Shown: positions 50,276 to 54,782 of the stretch, piece after piece
Layout of the letters: each line of letters starts with the position of its first letter
Numbering within the stretch: position 1 is the first letter of the stretch
Source: Rhizobium mongolense subsp. loessense
GTDB lineage: Bacteria; Pseudomonadota; Alphaproteobacteria; Rhizobiales; Rhizobiaceae
Reading direction: 5' to 3'
Length of the DNA: 64,000 nucleotides
Assembly: GCF_900099775.1 (NCBI RefSeq)
Contig: NZ_FMTM01000001.1
Coordinates: 1,178,001-1,242,000 of the forward strand
Notes under the pieces: model-generated
Told to the model about the DNA's origin: nothing
What the model saw: only the letters and a program-made list of their open reading frames with translations
Database searches by the model: none
Made by a program: the position numbers and the translations under genes

Positions 50276-52132
50276 TCAATTTTCCGGTTTGAAGAGAAAG
50301 AACTGCACCCCAACGCCCGCAGCCTTGGGAAGCGGTTGGAGGTAGGACGGCACATTGCCCCTCGCCAATTGAGAATAAAGACCCTCCGGCTTCAGTTTTG
50401 CAAACTGCATTGTCGGATAATCGTCGGGACAGAAAGCCAAAACACGAACGTCCGCCCCCCTCAGGAAGGCCTCTGCATCCTTCGGTTCCGAAAGGCCGAT
50501 ATGCATTTCGGTCAGCATACCCCGGGGATTGCGATGATAAGGTGCGGTCAGAACATGCTGGCTCGTAAAGCGGAGGATCGGCACGCCGAGTTCAGATGAG
50601 GCCGCCACCATGCCGACAGGCATCGCATTCAGCGGCGCAAGAGCCTCTCTTGAGATACACGAAGGCTTGTTTTCCTCGTCTTTCGCTTCGTTCTTGTCTT
50701 CCTCCGTTTGCCTCTGCAACTCAATGAAGGCTCCTGCAACGGCCCAAACAGCAGGTACGCTGGCAAGCACCAGCATGATGTAACAGAATGCGGCAGCGAC
50801 ATTTTCGCGATCGCTGTTCGATATACGGCGGATGTCGATAATCAGCAGCGCTAGCGGCAGGATAGCGATCAGGTTTGCAAAGGGTGCCCCGCGCACCTGC
50901 ATGAGGCCGATGGCCCAGCAGAGGACGAGCAGGAAAAGCAGTATGGCGTGAATTCGCACCCTGTCGCGATAGAGGATTCGGAATGCGCTGACAGCAATGC
51001 CCAAAAGACCGACTGCGTAAAAGGCACCGATGCCGAAAGGCTCGTCGCGGATCATGTCGAGAATCGAGCGTGCTTCTGAAATATTGTTCAGCCACAGCTC
51101 AACGAGCATTGGGTCGAGATCGTCAAGCGGATTATGCAGGCATTGGGGCGCGATCACCATGGCTGAAGCTGCAACAGCGATGCCGATACCACCAAGTGCA
51201 GCGAAGCGTCCTCTTCTCGACGTACGGCTTGCGAAAACAGCCGCAACGGAAAGCATCCCACCGCCGATCGCAGCGAGGCTGTAAAAACCAAGCGAAAAAT
51301 TGTCGCAGGTTACGGTCGAATATAGGCGGGGCGGCATAGTCGAGAAGAACAGAATACTGACGGCCAGAGTGAGCGTCAGCCCGAATGCTTTGGCAGCCCT
51401 CTGAAAGGCTTCCCCCACCCAAGCCCAATGAAGAGCGACGACAAGGCAAACCGATGCGACAAAAGGTGTGGTCTCGACACCAATGGCCACCGCCAGGGCC
51501 GCCGTCAAGCCTGCAACGACATAGCTCCAGGCCCGGTGCTCCTCATCGAGAAGCATTGCCGTCATCAACGCGACAAGCCCGATCTGCACGTTGTGATGAT
51601 CGATCGCACCGGGCACGAAACGGTTGCTTGTCCATACGCCTAGTGCGGTCATCACCAGACAGATATGCATGGCAGGCACGCCGCCGATGCGGCGGCCCGC
51701 ACTCGCCATCGCAAGCATGAGAGGGATAACGAGTGAGACAGGCCAGATCGCGAGCGCCACGGCCTCGGCCTGCTCGCCCGCCAGAAACAAGCCGAAGAAC
51801 TTGATGAGCCCCGCGATCGGCAAATCGATCAGCCGCGACCAGTGCATCAGCGTGCCATCAACGCCCAGCCGGTATTGCGTCAAATCGAACCAGCTCTGTC
51901 CGGAAAGAAAATCCCTTACTTCGACGAGCCGCATGCCGTCGTCATTGTCCGGACCGACATAGTCTTTCGTCCCGATCAGCTTCACCGGCAAAATACTCGC
52001 GATTAGCACCGCGCTATAAAGCGACACCGACGGCCATAGACGCATGAGAAGCATGCGGATGGCGGCAAGCAACACGATAGGCGGCGAAGATTTAGAAGCT
52101 GAATTGCCGGTCATTCCTGCGACGTTCGCCAT
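50276..52132 (-). CDS. GT-C-fold membrane glycosyltransferase-like protein
   Basis: 618 residues, 11-13 hydrophobic segments, then a soluble C-terminal part. First loop has an acidic YVGPDNDDGMRLVEVRDF motif where GT-C enzymes carry their metal-binding Asp; later VPGAIDHHNVQIGL resembles the DHH motif of STT3/AglB-like proteins. These suggest transfer from a polyprenyl-linked donor on the periplasmic side. No close named family recognised. It is divergent from the GT2 gene at 52272. Confidence 0.75.
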   Translation of the reverse strand: MANVAGMTGNSASKSSPPIVLLAAIRMLLMRLWPSVSLYSAVLIASILPVKLIGTKDYVGPDNDDGMRLVEVRDFLSGQSWFDLTQYRLGVDGTLMHWSRLIDLPIAGLIKFFGLFLAGEQAEAVALAIWPVSLVIPLMLAMASAGRRIGGVPAMHICLVMTALGVWTSNRFVPGAIDHHNVQIGLVALMTAMLLDEEHRAWSYVVAGLTAALAVAIGVETTPFVASVCLVVALHWAWVGEAFQRAAKAFGLTLTLAVSILFFSTMPPRLYSTVTCDNFSLGFYSLAAIGGGMLSVAAVFASRTSRRGRFAALGGIGIAVAASAMVIAPQCLHNPLDDLDPMLVELWLNNISEARSILDMIRDEPFGIGAFYAVGLLGIAVSAFRILYRDRVRIHAILLFLLVLCWAIGLMQVRGAPFANLIAILPLALLIIDIRRISNSDRENVAAAFCYIMLVLASVPAVWAVAGAFIELQRQTEEDKNEAKDEENKPSCISREALAPLNAMPVGMVAASSELGVPILRFTSQHVLTAPYHRNPRGMLTEMHIGLSEPKDAEAFLRGADVRVLAFCPDDYPTMQFAKLKPEGLYSQLARGNVPSYLQPLPKAAGVGVQFFLFKPEN

Positions 52133-52271
52133 TCCTGCTGTCCCGTCCTAAGCTGCGCGAACTTTAGCTTTTGCAGATCAAGAAAGTGTAAAGCGTCCGA
52201 ATGGCTGCCGACTCTTCCCGCGTTATAGGGTCTTATTAACGCTGGTGTTTTAGACTGCACGCCAATTGTGA

Positions 52272-53288
52272 ATGGCAAGTGGCATCATGACACGATCACA
52301 GACCAAAACCCTAAACATCGCTGTCCTGCTTCCGTGCTACAACGAAGCAGCCACGATCGGTGCGGTGGTTCGCGGCTTCAAAGCGGCGCTGCCGCAAGCA
52401 CAGATACATGTCTACGACAACAATTCGACAGACGGCACCGCGCTCCATGCGATGCTGGCCGGCGGCGCTGTCGTGCGCGAACGGCGCCAGGGCAAGGGCC
52501 ATGTTGTGCGCCGCATGTTCGCCGATATCGACGCCGACATCTATCTGATGGCAGATGGCGACGGCACTTATGCGCCGGAAGACGGCGAAGAGCTGATCCG
52601 CACGCTGCTGACCGAACGCGCCGACATGGTAGTCGGAACGCGGCGCGGCGTTCATTCCGACGCGGGGCGCAATGGACATGCTTTCGGCAACCGCATCTTC
52701 AACATTCTCTACCGCACGATCTTCGGTCCGGACTTCACCGATATCTTCTCAGGCTACCGGGCCTTCTCGCGCCGTTTCGTCAAGAGCTTCCCGGCCGTTT
52801 CCGCCGGTTTCGAAATCGAGACCGAAATGTCTGTCCACGCCTCTCGGCTCAAGCTGCCGGTCGCCGAGCTGGAACTCGATTACGGCCGCCGCCCGGAAGG
52901 TTCGCACTCGAAACTCTCGACCTTGAAGGACGGCGGCAAGATTCTCTGGATGTTCGCCATGCTGATGAAGGAAACGCGGCCCTTTGCCTTCTTCGGCCTC
53001 ATCAGCGCGTGCTTCATGCTGTCGAGCATGGCTTTCATGGCGCCTGTGCTGGCGGAATACTTCGAGACCGGGCTTGTCAACCGCATGCCGACATGGGTTC
53101 TCTCCATGGCGCTGATGATGATCTCCTTCATGGTCTTCACAGCGGGTCTGATCCTTGATTCCGTCGCACGCTCGAGGGCCGAGCAGCTTCGCATTCATTA
53201 CCTCAACGTCGCCGCGTCGAGCCAGGGTCTAACGCCGGAAAAGTCCATTGAAACCGCGCCAGATGGCAAGACCACGCGTATCGCATAG
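52272..53288 (+). CDS. GT2-family glycosyltransferase (DPM1/ArnC-like)
   Basis: 338 residues. Nucleotide-sugar binding start IAVLLPCYNEAATIGAVVRG, NNSTDGT, then the metal-binding DGDGTYAPED (DxD) and acceptor region DIFSGYRAFSRRF. Two hydrophobic segments at the C-terminus (AFFGLISACFMLSSMAFMAP, WVLSMALMMISFMVFTAG) anchor it in the membrane, as in polyprenyl-phosphate mannose or glucose synthases. First of a four-gene series. Confidence 0.92.
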   Translation: MASGIMTRSQTKTLNIAVLLPCYNEAATIGAVVRGFKAALPQAQIHVYDNNSTDGTALHAMLAGGAVVRERRQGKGHVVRRMFADIDADIYLMADGDGTYAPEDGEELIRTLLTERADMVVGTRRGVHSDAGRNGHAFGNRIFNILYRTIFGPDFTDIFSGYRAFSRRFVKSFPAVSAGFEIETEMSVHASRLKLPVAELELDYGRRPEGSHSKLSTLKDGGKILWMFAMLMKETRPFAFFGLISACFMLSSMAFMAPVLAEYFETGLVNRMPTWVLSMALMMISFMVFTAGLILDSVARSRAEQLRIHYLNVAASSQGLTPEKSIETAPDGKTTRIA

Positions 53289-53318
53289 TTGCTTCCGCTC
53301 AAAGGTGATGCCCTTTCC

Positions 53319-54023
53319 ATGAACAGAGAAACCACAAACCGCATTCGTTTCGTGCTGGAAGATATCCTGCCGCCGGTTGTCCGTGATTCCGGTGCGTTTC
53401 GCTGGGCAGCGCGGCGCGTCTGGGGCGACCATATCACGCACTTGGCGAAATTTCGTGAGCGAGCACCGTTTCTTTCGGCAGAGGAATATGCCGAGCTTTA
53501 CCGCAAGCATCCCCGTGTTCACGAAGGCACGGACAATTCTGCGGCCTGTATCAACCGCATCCTCGGATCGATCGCGGGAGAGAGCGTCTGCGATATCGGT
53601 TGCGGTACGGGTGCGCTGCTCCGCAGCATCCAGGCGGCGCATCCCGGGCTTAATCGCCTTACAGGCGTCGACTTCGTGATTGAAGACGCAGCACGGCTGC
53701 CTGGCATCGAATATGTCGCGGCCAAGGTCGAAAACCTCCCCTTTGCAGATGCGGAATTCGACACGGTCATCTGCACGCATGTGATCGAGCATATTCTCGA
53801 CTACCGGCAAGCGATTGCGGAACTGCGCCGGATTGCAAAACGCCGCCTGATCATCATTGTGCCGAGGGAACGCGAATACCGCTACACGTTCAATCCGCAC
53901 TTCAACTTCTTCCCTTATACGCACTCCTTCCTGAGAGCTGTCCACCCGGTGCCTCCGGCCTTTGTCTGCGAGGATATCGGTCGCGACATCTTCTATTCGG
54001 AAGAGAGAGGTGCAGCGGATTGA
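53319..54023 (+). CDS. class I SAM-dependent methyltransferase
   Basis: 234 residues from the ATG at 53319; a TTG at 53289 would extend it. SAM-binding loop ESVCDIGCGTGALLRSIQAA, then VENLPFADAEFDTVICTHVIEH. The product may be a methylated sugar or lipid intermediate given its place in the set. Its stop lies 11 bases before the next ATG. Confidence 0.88.
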   Translation: MNRETTNRIRFVLEDILPPVVRDSGAFRWAARRVWGDHITHLAKFRERAPFLSAEEYAELYRKHPRVHEGTDNSAACINRILGSIAGESVCDIGCGTGALLRSIQAAHPGLNRLTGVDFVIEDAARLPGIEYVAAKVENLPFADAEFDTVICTHVIEHILDYRQAIAELRRIAKRRLIIIVPREREYRYTFNPHFNFFPYTHSFLRAVHPVPPAFVCEDIGRDIFYSEERGAAD

Positions 54024-54034
54024 AGGACGGTTCG

Positions 54035-54397
54035 ATGATTTCCACTTTTTCGACAGCAACATGGATTGGGCTTATCGGCACGCCGCTGCTGATTGCCTCG
54101 GGCCAAGTGCTGTTCAAGCTGGCGAGCGCGGCCACAGGCGAGCTCAGTGTCCGCAATATTCTTGCTCTGCTTCTCAATCCGGTGTTGCTTGCAGCGCTGC
54201 TCCTTTACGGTCTCGGAACGATTATTTGGATTTACGTCCTGAAAGCCGTCCCGCTGACGATTGCTTACTCCTTTATGGGATTGACCTTCTGTTTCGTGCC
54301 TTTGCTGGCGCAGGTCTTCCTTGGAGAAGCCCTTACTGTTCGCTACGCCATTGGCGCGGCTTTCATCATTGCCGGCATGCTCGCGATCAATGGCTGA
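54035..54397 (+). CDS. small 4-TM protein, EamA/SMR-like (ArnE/ArnF-like)
   Basis: 120 residues from the ATG at 54035 (AAGGA seven bases upstream). Four hydrophobic helices, with the SMR/EamA half-repeat: GTPLLIASGQVLFKLASA, AVPLTIAYSFMGLTFCFVP, GEALTVRYAIGAAFIIAGM. In Arn systems such dimers flip undecaprenyl-phosphate sugars. The last bases overlap the next ATG. Confidence 0.85.
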   Translation: MISTFSTATWIGLIGTPLLIASGQVLFKLASAATGELSVRNILALLLNPVLLAALLLYGLGTIIWIYVLKAVPLTIAYSFMGLTFCFVPLLAQVFLGEALTVRYAIGAAFIIAGMLAING

Positions 54398-54782
54398 CGC
54401 CTCTCTCAATCGAAGCGGGTCGCTTCTGCGCTTTGCCGCATTGTCGCTGCTTGGATTGGCGGCCGAAACGCTACTCTTCCATTTGCTGCTGCAGGTGATG
54501 CAAGGCCCTCTTTTGACGCGGGCAGTGAGCCTTGTTGCAATCCTTGGCATTATGCTCGCTATGCTGCGACGCATCGATCTCACGACGGGTGGCCGGCTGT
54601 CGGTCGGTCGCACCGGTATCGTCGCCATCCTGCTGATTGCGGCGATCTTGAATTATGCTCTCTACGCCACGCTCATAACGGTATTGCCGTCTCTGCAGCC
54701 GTTGGCGGCGATGGTTCTCGCCTCCGCCTCTACACTGTGCTTTGCAATTTTCGGCTACATCCGCTTCGCTTTTCGCGAATAA
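54390..54782 (+). CDS. small 4-TM membrane protein, GtrA-like
   Basis: 130 residues, ATG at 54390, eight bases before the previous stop ends. Four hydrophobic helices beginning LLRFAALSLLGLAAETLLFH. Layout fits GtrA/DPMS-type flippase proteins that accompany GT2 synthases. With the preceding protein it could form a heteromeric flippase. Function inferred from context only. Confidence 0.75.
   Translation: MADASLNRSGSLLRFAALSLLGLAAETLLFHLLLQVMQGPLLTRAVSLVAILGIMLAMLRRIDLTTGGRLSVGRTGIVAILLIAAILNYALYATLITVLPSLQPLAAMVLASASTLCFAIFGYIRFAFRE

Follow-up and report, generated by a model that had tools for sequence, protein, structure and literature searches.

A candidate extracytoplasmic glycosylation module with an oligosaccharyltransferase-like transferase in Rhizobium

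The window analysed here is a stretch of 64,000 nucleotides from the 6.7-Mb genome of Rhizobium mongolense subsp. loessense (contig NZ_FMTM01000001.1, positions 1,178,001 to 1,242,000). Positions 50276 to 54782 of the window hold genes for a GT-C membrane protein, a family 2 glycosyltransferase (GT2), a methyltransferase and two small membrane proteins, which an initial annotation had read as a candidate lipid-linked sugar module. We propose that they include a three-component extracytoplasmic glycosylation module in which a GT-C enzyme derived from an oligosaccharyltransferase (OST) transfers a single sugar from polyprenyl phosphate, and we put the probability of this reading at about 0.75. 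The conserved core consists of the GT2, a small membrane protein of GtrA type (ArnE/EamA type in some relatives, both types in the window) and the divergently transcribed GT-C gene. Judged from gene content, the locus has the layout of such a system, with the GT2 gene beside the GT-C gene and a small GtrA/SMR-type putative flippase, the window copy of which falls below its family cut-off. The logic of synthesis, flipping and transfer put forward at the outset gains support from neighbours that stay together across the family and from an OST-type metal site found by alignment, whereas the five genes as one set and an ArnE/ArnF pair did not survive the analysis, and the synthase proved closer to AglJ than to ArnC.

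The GT-C protein resembles oligosaccharyltransferases

The GT-C gene (positions 50276 to 52132, minus strand) encodes 618 amino acids, and its product, a proposed extracytoplasmic sugar transferase, is by its sequence and predicted structure a distant, diverged OST homologue. Two alignments of relatives, selected by us from the loci collected, were used: A1 (35 rows), which was fed to AlphaFold2, and A2 (42 rows). Structure prediction, a check suggested by the initial annotation, gave a full-length OST (AglB) fold with a multi-helix membrane part (about 13 membrane segments by hydropathy) and a C-terminal globular domain, at a predicted local distance difference test score of 88.5 and a predicted template-modelling score of 0.88. 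The top 22 Foldseek matches in the Protein Data Bank (PDB) were STT3, AglB, DPY19 and PglB chains, some of them in translocon entries (best E 1.1e-10). VIA-align paired model residues 20 to 618 with AglB at a Z score of 23.8 (550 residues, 3.6 Å), ahead of STT3 (up to 21.8), DPY19 (20.9), PglB (17.0) and ArnT (15.8). Because helical bundles without kinship can reach a Z of about 13, the OST matches are well separated from that level and the lower-scoring ones less so.

Independently of structure, the A2 profile matched A. fulgidus AglB over the membrane part (E 9.6e-10) and the separate AglB C-terminal domain (PDB 3vgp; E 1.8e-7, or 1.1e-4 with the narrower A1 profile). Nineteen of the 35 A1 members matched the NCBIfam model archaeo_STT3 at E up to 0.1 (best 2.3e-9), and two matched PF02516 (best E 9.4e-4). 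No Pfam or NCBIfam model reaches its cut-off with the window protein, which scores 15.7 bits against archaeo_STT3 (cut-off 450) and does not match PF02516 at E 1; at E 0.01 no protein of its whole genome matches PF02516.

The AglB metal ligands are D47, D161 and H163, and E360 is the glutamate of the TIXE motif (PMC8342417, excerpt). The initial annotation had tied its proposal to a catalytic site in the GT-C protein, and the alignments place an OST-type site there, with two DxD-type metal motifs and a TIXE/SVSE glutamate. Asp64 (positions 51941 to 51943, minus strand, like all residues named here), at the end of the first motif (D-N-D), is the proposed ligand corresponding to AglB Asp47; this pairing is by motif position, as the alignment of A2 with AglB begins after D-N-D. 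In HMMER alignments, D178-H179-H180 (51593 to 51601), the second metal motif, pairs with AglB D161-H162-H163, Glu353 (51074 to 51076) with Glu360, and Arg414 (50891 to 50893) with the arginine of AglB 'QNRF'. D64 and E353 are invariant in the 42 rows of A2, as are E220, C492 and C568; D178 is kept in 39 rows, H179 in 41 and H180 in 40, and position 414 is arginine in 40 and lysine in two. The Asp-rich (D64/D65) and DHH motifs noticed at first sight are real, and conserved above chance. D64, D178, H180, E353 and R/K414 occur together in 37 of the 42 A2 rows and 32 of the 35 A1 rows. At one further locus (L027 1405-3264, the same place as L133 7905-9791), a GT-C relative with a divergent GtrA gene beside it has not kept the DHH motif and is perhaps inactive or altered.

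OSTs are associated with N-glycosylation, for which the donors are usually oligosaccharides. In these enzymes WWDYG and DK/MI form the pocket for the Ser/Thr of the sequon (PMC8342417, excerpt). Aligned to 3vgp, the window protein reads SSELG in the place of WWDYG (50585 to 50599), with no tryptophans. Among the 63 distinct aligned rows, that place reads mostly x-x-D/N-x-G, and neither WWDYG nor WWD occurs in the last 160 residues, the part searched. A PYHR motif, absent from the aligned AglB stretch, is conserved instead at Y532-H533-R534 (50531 to 50539; 41, 39 and 37 of 42 rows). Because WWDYG is missing from all aligned rows, the GT-C protein is probably not an N-glycosylation enzyme. That it is nevertheless a canonical N-glycosylation OST, as its fold, its metal site and the archaeo_STT3 matches among its relatives would allow, is very improbable given the absent WWDYG, the lack of a PF02516 match across the genome at E 0.01 and a partner GT2 of the monosaccharide-donor type; we did not file the protein under this class.

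A true protein glycosyltransferase acting at a non-sequon site of exported proteins, an OST-fold bacterial counterpart of the C-mannosyltransferase DPY19, is a possible but less favoured role. It would explain why the 22 best Z scores (23.8 to 16.6) all belong to OST and DPY19, ahead of ArnT at 15.8, and why the peptide-holding C-terminal domain of OSTs (3vu0, Z 10.3; 3vgp, E 1.8e-7) and the TIXE glutamate are kept. The shared C-terminal domain may bind something else, however, and with WWDYG absent the protein carries no known peptide motif. DPY19, which combines an OST-like fold with a lipid-phosphate-monosaccharide donor, is metal-independent and has no metal ligands (PMC10154233, excerpt), whereas the GT-C family keeps them; assignment to DPY19 itself was rejected on this ground.

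The synthase, methyltransferase and small membrane proteins

The GT2 gene (positions 52287 to 53288, plus strand; a start at 52272 is possible) encodes 333 amino acids that match PF00535 at 55.9 bits (cut-off 23.3). The initial annotation had labelled the protein 'DPM/ArnC-like'; among NCBIfam models it comes closest to archaeal AglJ (TIGR04182, 213 bits), and the ArnC model reaches 23 bits. The curated AglJ cut-off of 325 bits is missed, and we therefore call the protein an AglJ-like polyprenyl-phosphate-sugar synthase and not AglJ proper. Its PDB matches include glucosyl-3-phosphoglycerate synthase (E 4e-8) and dolichol-phosphate-mannose synthase (5mlz, E 4e-5). The DGD read within ADGDGTY (52554 to 52562, plus strand) is presumably the metal and nucleotide-sugar motif generally known for GT2 enzymes.

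The next gene (53319 to 54023, plus strand; a TTG start at 53289 is possible) encodes a class I S-adenosylmethionine methyltransferase, as had been claimed (PF08241, 61.2 bits, cut-off 21.2). It is an accessory and optional component that may methylate the sugar of the module. An anti-phage system was considered and rejected: PADLOC matched only the methyltransferase of the five proteins (mad2, 39.7 bits), which we take to be a general methyltransferase match.

Small membrane protein 1 (54035 to 54397, plus strand, from an ATG at 54035 or a TTG at 54020) is ArnE/EamA-like and a candidate accessory or alternative flippase. It scores 27.7 bits against EamA, just under the Pfam cut-off of 28.2, which its counterparts at two other loci (L167 and L168) pass, and 46.9 bits against the ArnE model NF011625, half of the curated cut-off of 92, so that it was not accepted as ArnE proper. 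Small membrane protein 2 (54390 to 54782, plus strand), the proposed polyprenyl-phosphate-sugar flippase, has four helices in its predicted model and appears from sequence comparison to be fast-evolving. Five of its counterparts match GtrA (PF04138) at 59 to 78 bits (E 7e-16 to 7e-22), those at L107, L044 and L113 at 71 to 78 bits (E 7e-22 to 1e-19), and these strong matches in relatives settle that protein 2 is GtrA-like. The two had been described as 4-TM proteins (four transmembrane segments each) resembling ArnE/F or GtrA; this fits protein 2, and protein 1 only roughly (about three segments). One is EamA/ArnE-like and the other GtrA-like, which leaves no ArnE/ArnF heterodimer.

The layout is conserved while its parts are exchanged

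Conservation of the gene set, another check that had been proposed, was followed through individual GT-C or GT2 loci (L-numbers) and genomes (G-numbers). Forty-six named Rhizobium loci were collected by exact patterns of the window GT-C protein and are thus close relatives; the closest protein among named genomes, from R. mongolense USDA 1844, is 97% identical. All 46 have a GT2 gene within 3.5 kb of the GT-C gene, and 45 have a GtrA-like gene, the exception (L069) carrying an ArnE-like gene. The methyltransferase and the ArnE-like gene occur in four loci each, the same four, and a fixed five-gene pathway was rejected on this count. What the check upheld is the joint conservation of GT2, flippase-type protein and GT-C in the family; the five genes are not one set.

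Our sample of the family comprised 121 genomes over 109 genera, with GT-C called at E<=1e-10 and GT2 at E<=1e-30. GT-C was found in 61 genomes and GT2 in 55 (both in 52, GT-C only in nine, GT2 only in three, neither in 57), a co-occurrence with Fisher p 6e-21 in a test that ignores relatedness. For 51 of these 55 GT2 genes, the adjacent gene is a GT-C gene in divergent orientation, 142 to 1150 bases away. Among 20 loci taken from the 61 GT-C genomes (one, L158, apparently repeating the genome of L069), 18 carry a nearby gene of the GtrA-like or ArnE-like kind, the weakest at 26 bits (L151), and two (L154 and L169) have neither.

Components are replaced at the same site. We inspected seven of the nine genomes with GT-C only, leaving out G435 and G488, which gave partial matches. 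In five of them (L151, L152, L153, L156 and L157) the GT-C gene is preceded, in the same orientation, by a different GT2 of about 415 amino acids and a GtrA-like gene. Pfam scans of three of the alternative GT2s and two of the GtrA-like proteins all gave scores above cut-off. At L167 and L168 an EamA-type protein directly follows GT2 and there is no GtrA-like gene. In a quick tree, which used six of the 46 named Rhizobium loci and left out L158, the loci with the alternative GT2 are mixed with those of AglJ type, and the pair L156/L157 stands next to L108, L114 and L115. The strongest indication that the synthase, the small membrane protein and the GT-C protein work together is that the arrangement persists when individual components are replaced. 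Adjacency that reflects only coincidence or common descent, with no function in common, would agree with the many distant GT-C genes that stand alone; set against the divergent pair in 51 of 55 cases over 109 genera and the swaps at one site, it is scarcely credible.

In an order-level sample of 150 genomes, GT-C was found in 29 and GT2 in 36 (both in 18, GT-C only in 11, GT2 only in 18, neither in 103; p 8e-7). At 40 order- and class-level loci, nine have GT2 within 3.5 kb of GT-C and ten have a GtrA-like gene alone; one of these ten calls (L135, 46 bits) is doubtful, as its frame overlaps GT-C. One genome (L107, G023, judged to be the same as L073) is counted both here and among the 46. A sample of 289 genomes of the class contained GT-C in 43 (E<=1e-5), and a sample of 398 genomes of the phylum contained it in 54 (E<=1e-10), four of the 54 outside the class.

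Several GT-C relatives occur in other settings. In other Alphaproteobacteria, a second type of neighbourhood joins a GT-C relative to a flavin adenine dinucleotide (FAD) oxidoreductase and a GtrA-like gene, with no AglJ-like GT2 (L120, L127, L130, L140, L142, L145 and L146), and L118 has this type without GtrA. Three of the flavoproteins were scanned in Pfam and two in NCBIfam, where they match the PRK07208 family, and two of the GtrA proteins were scanned as well. The flavoproteins show a faint similarity to UDP-galactopyranose mutase and may act on sugar ring form or oxidation. Tandem GT-C copies lie at L112 (6918-10851) and L142 (8001-11527), and several genomes of the family carry a second, more distant copy elsewhere. 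Eleven plasmid records contain a GT-C match, three of them with an annotated gene there (two hypothetical proteins and one AcrB/AcrD/AcrF family protein); the last, a GT-C relative on a Sphingomonas plasmid (NZ_CP155751.1, 198832-200451), looks misannotated.

Evidence weighing against the module

A number of observations speak against our proposal. The catalytic set is incomplete in three A1 rows and five A2 rows, which may be misaligned or inactive. The A2 profile search also returned unrelated potassium channel chains down to E 1.4e-4, which we attribute to chance similarity among hydrophobic helices; because they reach this value, the STT3A rows (E 2e-4) carry no weight and only the AglB rows do. 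Protein 2 itself scores 15.9 bits against PF04138 (E 0.015, gathering cut-off 26.1), PF04138 has no match anywhere in the whole genome, and a PDB fold search with the protein 2 model gave no significant relative (nothing below E 1.8). The GtrA-type protein GtcA is itself called a putative flippase (PMC7389260, excerpt).

Linkage also loosens with distance. At the order level only 18 of the 29 GT-C genomes have GT2, which adjoins GT-C in nine of these 18 and lies apart in the other nine, and 21 of the 40 loci from the order and class showed no recognisable GT2, GtrA-like or ArnE-like gene up to 3.5 kb from GT-C. We surveyed 20 stand-alone GT2 loci, from 11 of the 18 order-level genomes with GT2 only and the nine with GT2 apart from GT-C, and scanned eight neighbouring proteins: three were GT87, one was EamA, one a weak PMT match and one DUF2207, and two had no match. 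Because AglJ-like GT2s adjoin GT87 proteins elsewhere (L178, L184 and L186), this GT2 type is not dedicated to the GT-C family and serves other transferases too. At one of the surveyed loci (L176) the AglJ-like GT2 follows a transporter with two EamA stretches.

Proposed mechanism and acceptor

We hypothesize that the module works in three steps. The AglJ-like GT2, judging by its family, would transfer a single hexose from a sugar nucleotide onto polyprenyl phosphate at the cytoplasmic face; the similarity to AglJ and DPM and the association with GT87 point to a hexose and to nothing more specific. The GtrA-like protein, perhaps together with or replaced by the ArnE-like one, would then flip the polyprenyl-phosphate-sugar to the periplasmic face. 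Finally, the GT-C protein, whose fold and active site were assigned by comparison, would move the single sugar onto an acceptor, using a divalent metal for which D64, D178 and H180 are the presumed ligands, together with E353 and R414. The euryarchaeal OST takes monophosphate-linked donors (PMC8342417, excerpt). Transfer of a single sugar is the simplest model because a monosaccharide synthase adjoins the GT-C gene and because both the euryarchaeal OST and DPY19 accept monophosphate donors. With WWDYG missing, an N-X-S/T sequon is not expected as the acceptor; the expected target would be a glycan or lipid of the envelope, or a different kind of protein site.

The chances are about even that the acceptor is a surface polysaccharide or the lipid A core, which the module would modify much as Gtr, CsbB-GtcA-YfhO or RgtE-RgtABCD systems do. 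An exchangeable synthase is what one would expect if the sugar varies, and the layout of GT2, GtrA and GT-C fits three-component systems already described (PMC7389260 and PMC11127046, both in excerpt). On the other side, the nearest solved structures are OSTs and DPY19, not a glycan-modifying GT-C enzyme such as ArnT; the GT-C gene is followed by xseA in 45 of the 46 named Rhizobium loci; and no O-antigen or exopolysaccharide cluster was seen beside the module among the open reading frames listed for the window.

Locus layout

All five genes claimed by the initial annotation are present as open reading frames. The four plus-strand genes form a tight run, in which the start of protein 2 (54390) overlaps the end of the protein 1 gene (54397), as noticed from the start, and the possible TTG start of protein 1 (54020) falls inside the end of the methyltransferase gene (54023). 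The hydropathy count gives about two membrane segments for GT2, at its C-terminal end, and four for protein 2. From the open reading frame coordinates, the divergent intergenic region between GT-C and GT2 (52133 to 52286) spans 154 bases; a search of 52000-52400 found no sigma-70-like promoter or terminator pattern, and neither Rfam families nor tRNAs were found in the window. The xseA gene lies 54 bases past the GT-C stop in the window, compared with a spacing of about 0.5 to 1.0 kb in many Rhizobium loci (L035-L076).

Novelty and significance

Among the matches listed from the open-licence literature there is no description of this GT-C family or of a rhizobial locus with this gene set, in line with the initial annotation, which was aware of no described rhizobial pathway with this set. 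On a bolder and rather doubtful view, the family would be a widespread, undescribed alphaproteobacterial branch of the OST superfamily that retains the metal site but no longer has the sequon pocket, and that passes a single polyprenyl-phosphate-linked sugar to a new kind of protein site outside the cytoplasm, with exchangeable synthase and flippase cassettes. If the module works as proposed, a bacterial OST-fold branch with another acceptor pocket and a monosaccharide synthase would show a substrate shift within this enzyme class, the family would be a natural comparison for probing the role of WWDYG, and the locus would indicate that plant symbionts modify their envelope or proteins in a way not yet studied.

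Comparison with known systems

Rhizobia are known to have a pathway for lipid-linked galacturonic acid that involves RgtE, so the logic of synthesis, flipping and transfer is not in itself new there. With the OSTs AglB, STT3 and PglB (GT66) the GT-C protein shares the full-length fold of membrane part and C-terminal domain, the DxD and DHH motifs, a TIXE-type glutamate and the arginine. It differs from them in lacking WWDYG, in its conserved PYHR and HWSR..D motifs, in the absence of a PF02516 match to the window protein and in a partner GT2 that suggests a polyprenyl-phosphate-monosaccharide donor. DPY19 is alike in its OST-like fold (Z 20.9) and lipid-phosphate-monosaccharide donor and differs in working without metal ligands (PMC10154233, excerpt).

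The haloarchaeal N-glycosylation system of AglJ and AglB resembles the Rhizobium module in pairing an AglJ-like GT2 (213 bits) with an AglB-like transferase. The Rhizobium GT2, however, stays below the AglJ cut-off of 325, its GT-C partner has no WWDYG, and the open reading frames beside the module include no further chain-building glycosyltransferase. The system that founded GT136 follows the same logic of lipid-linked donor, flippase and GT-C enzyme, but uses a phosphoribose synthase, a MATE flippase and a pentofuranose sugar (PMC11127046, excerpt).

The division of labour between GT2, GtrA-type protein and GT-C enzyme has been described for CsbB-GtcA-YfhO (PMC7389260, excerpt). The Rhizobium module shares with it and with the O-antigen Gtr systems a GT2 synthase, a small GtrA-type putative flippase and a GT-C transferase; it differs in an AglJ-like GT2, in the optional methyltransferase and second small membrane protein, and in a transferase that best fits the OST fold. 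The organisation is thus a known one, and the OST-derived transferase within it seems new.

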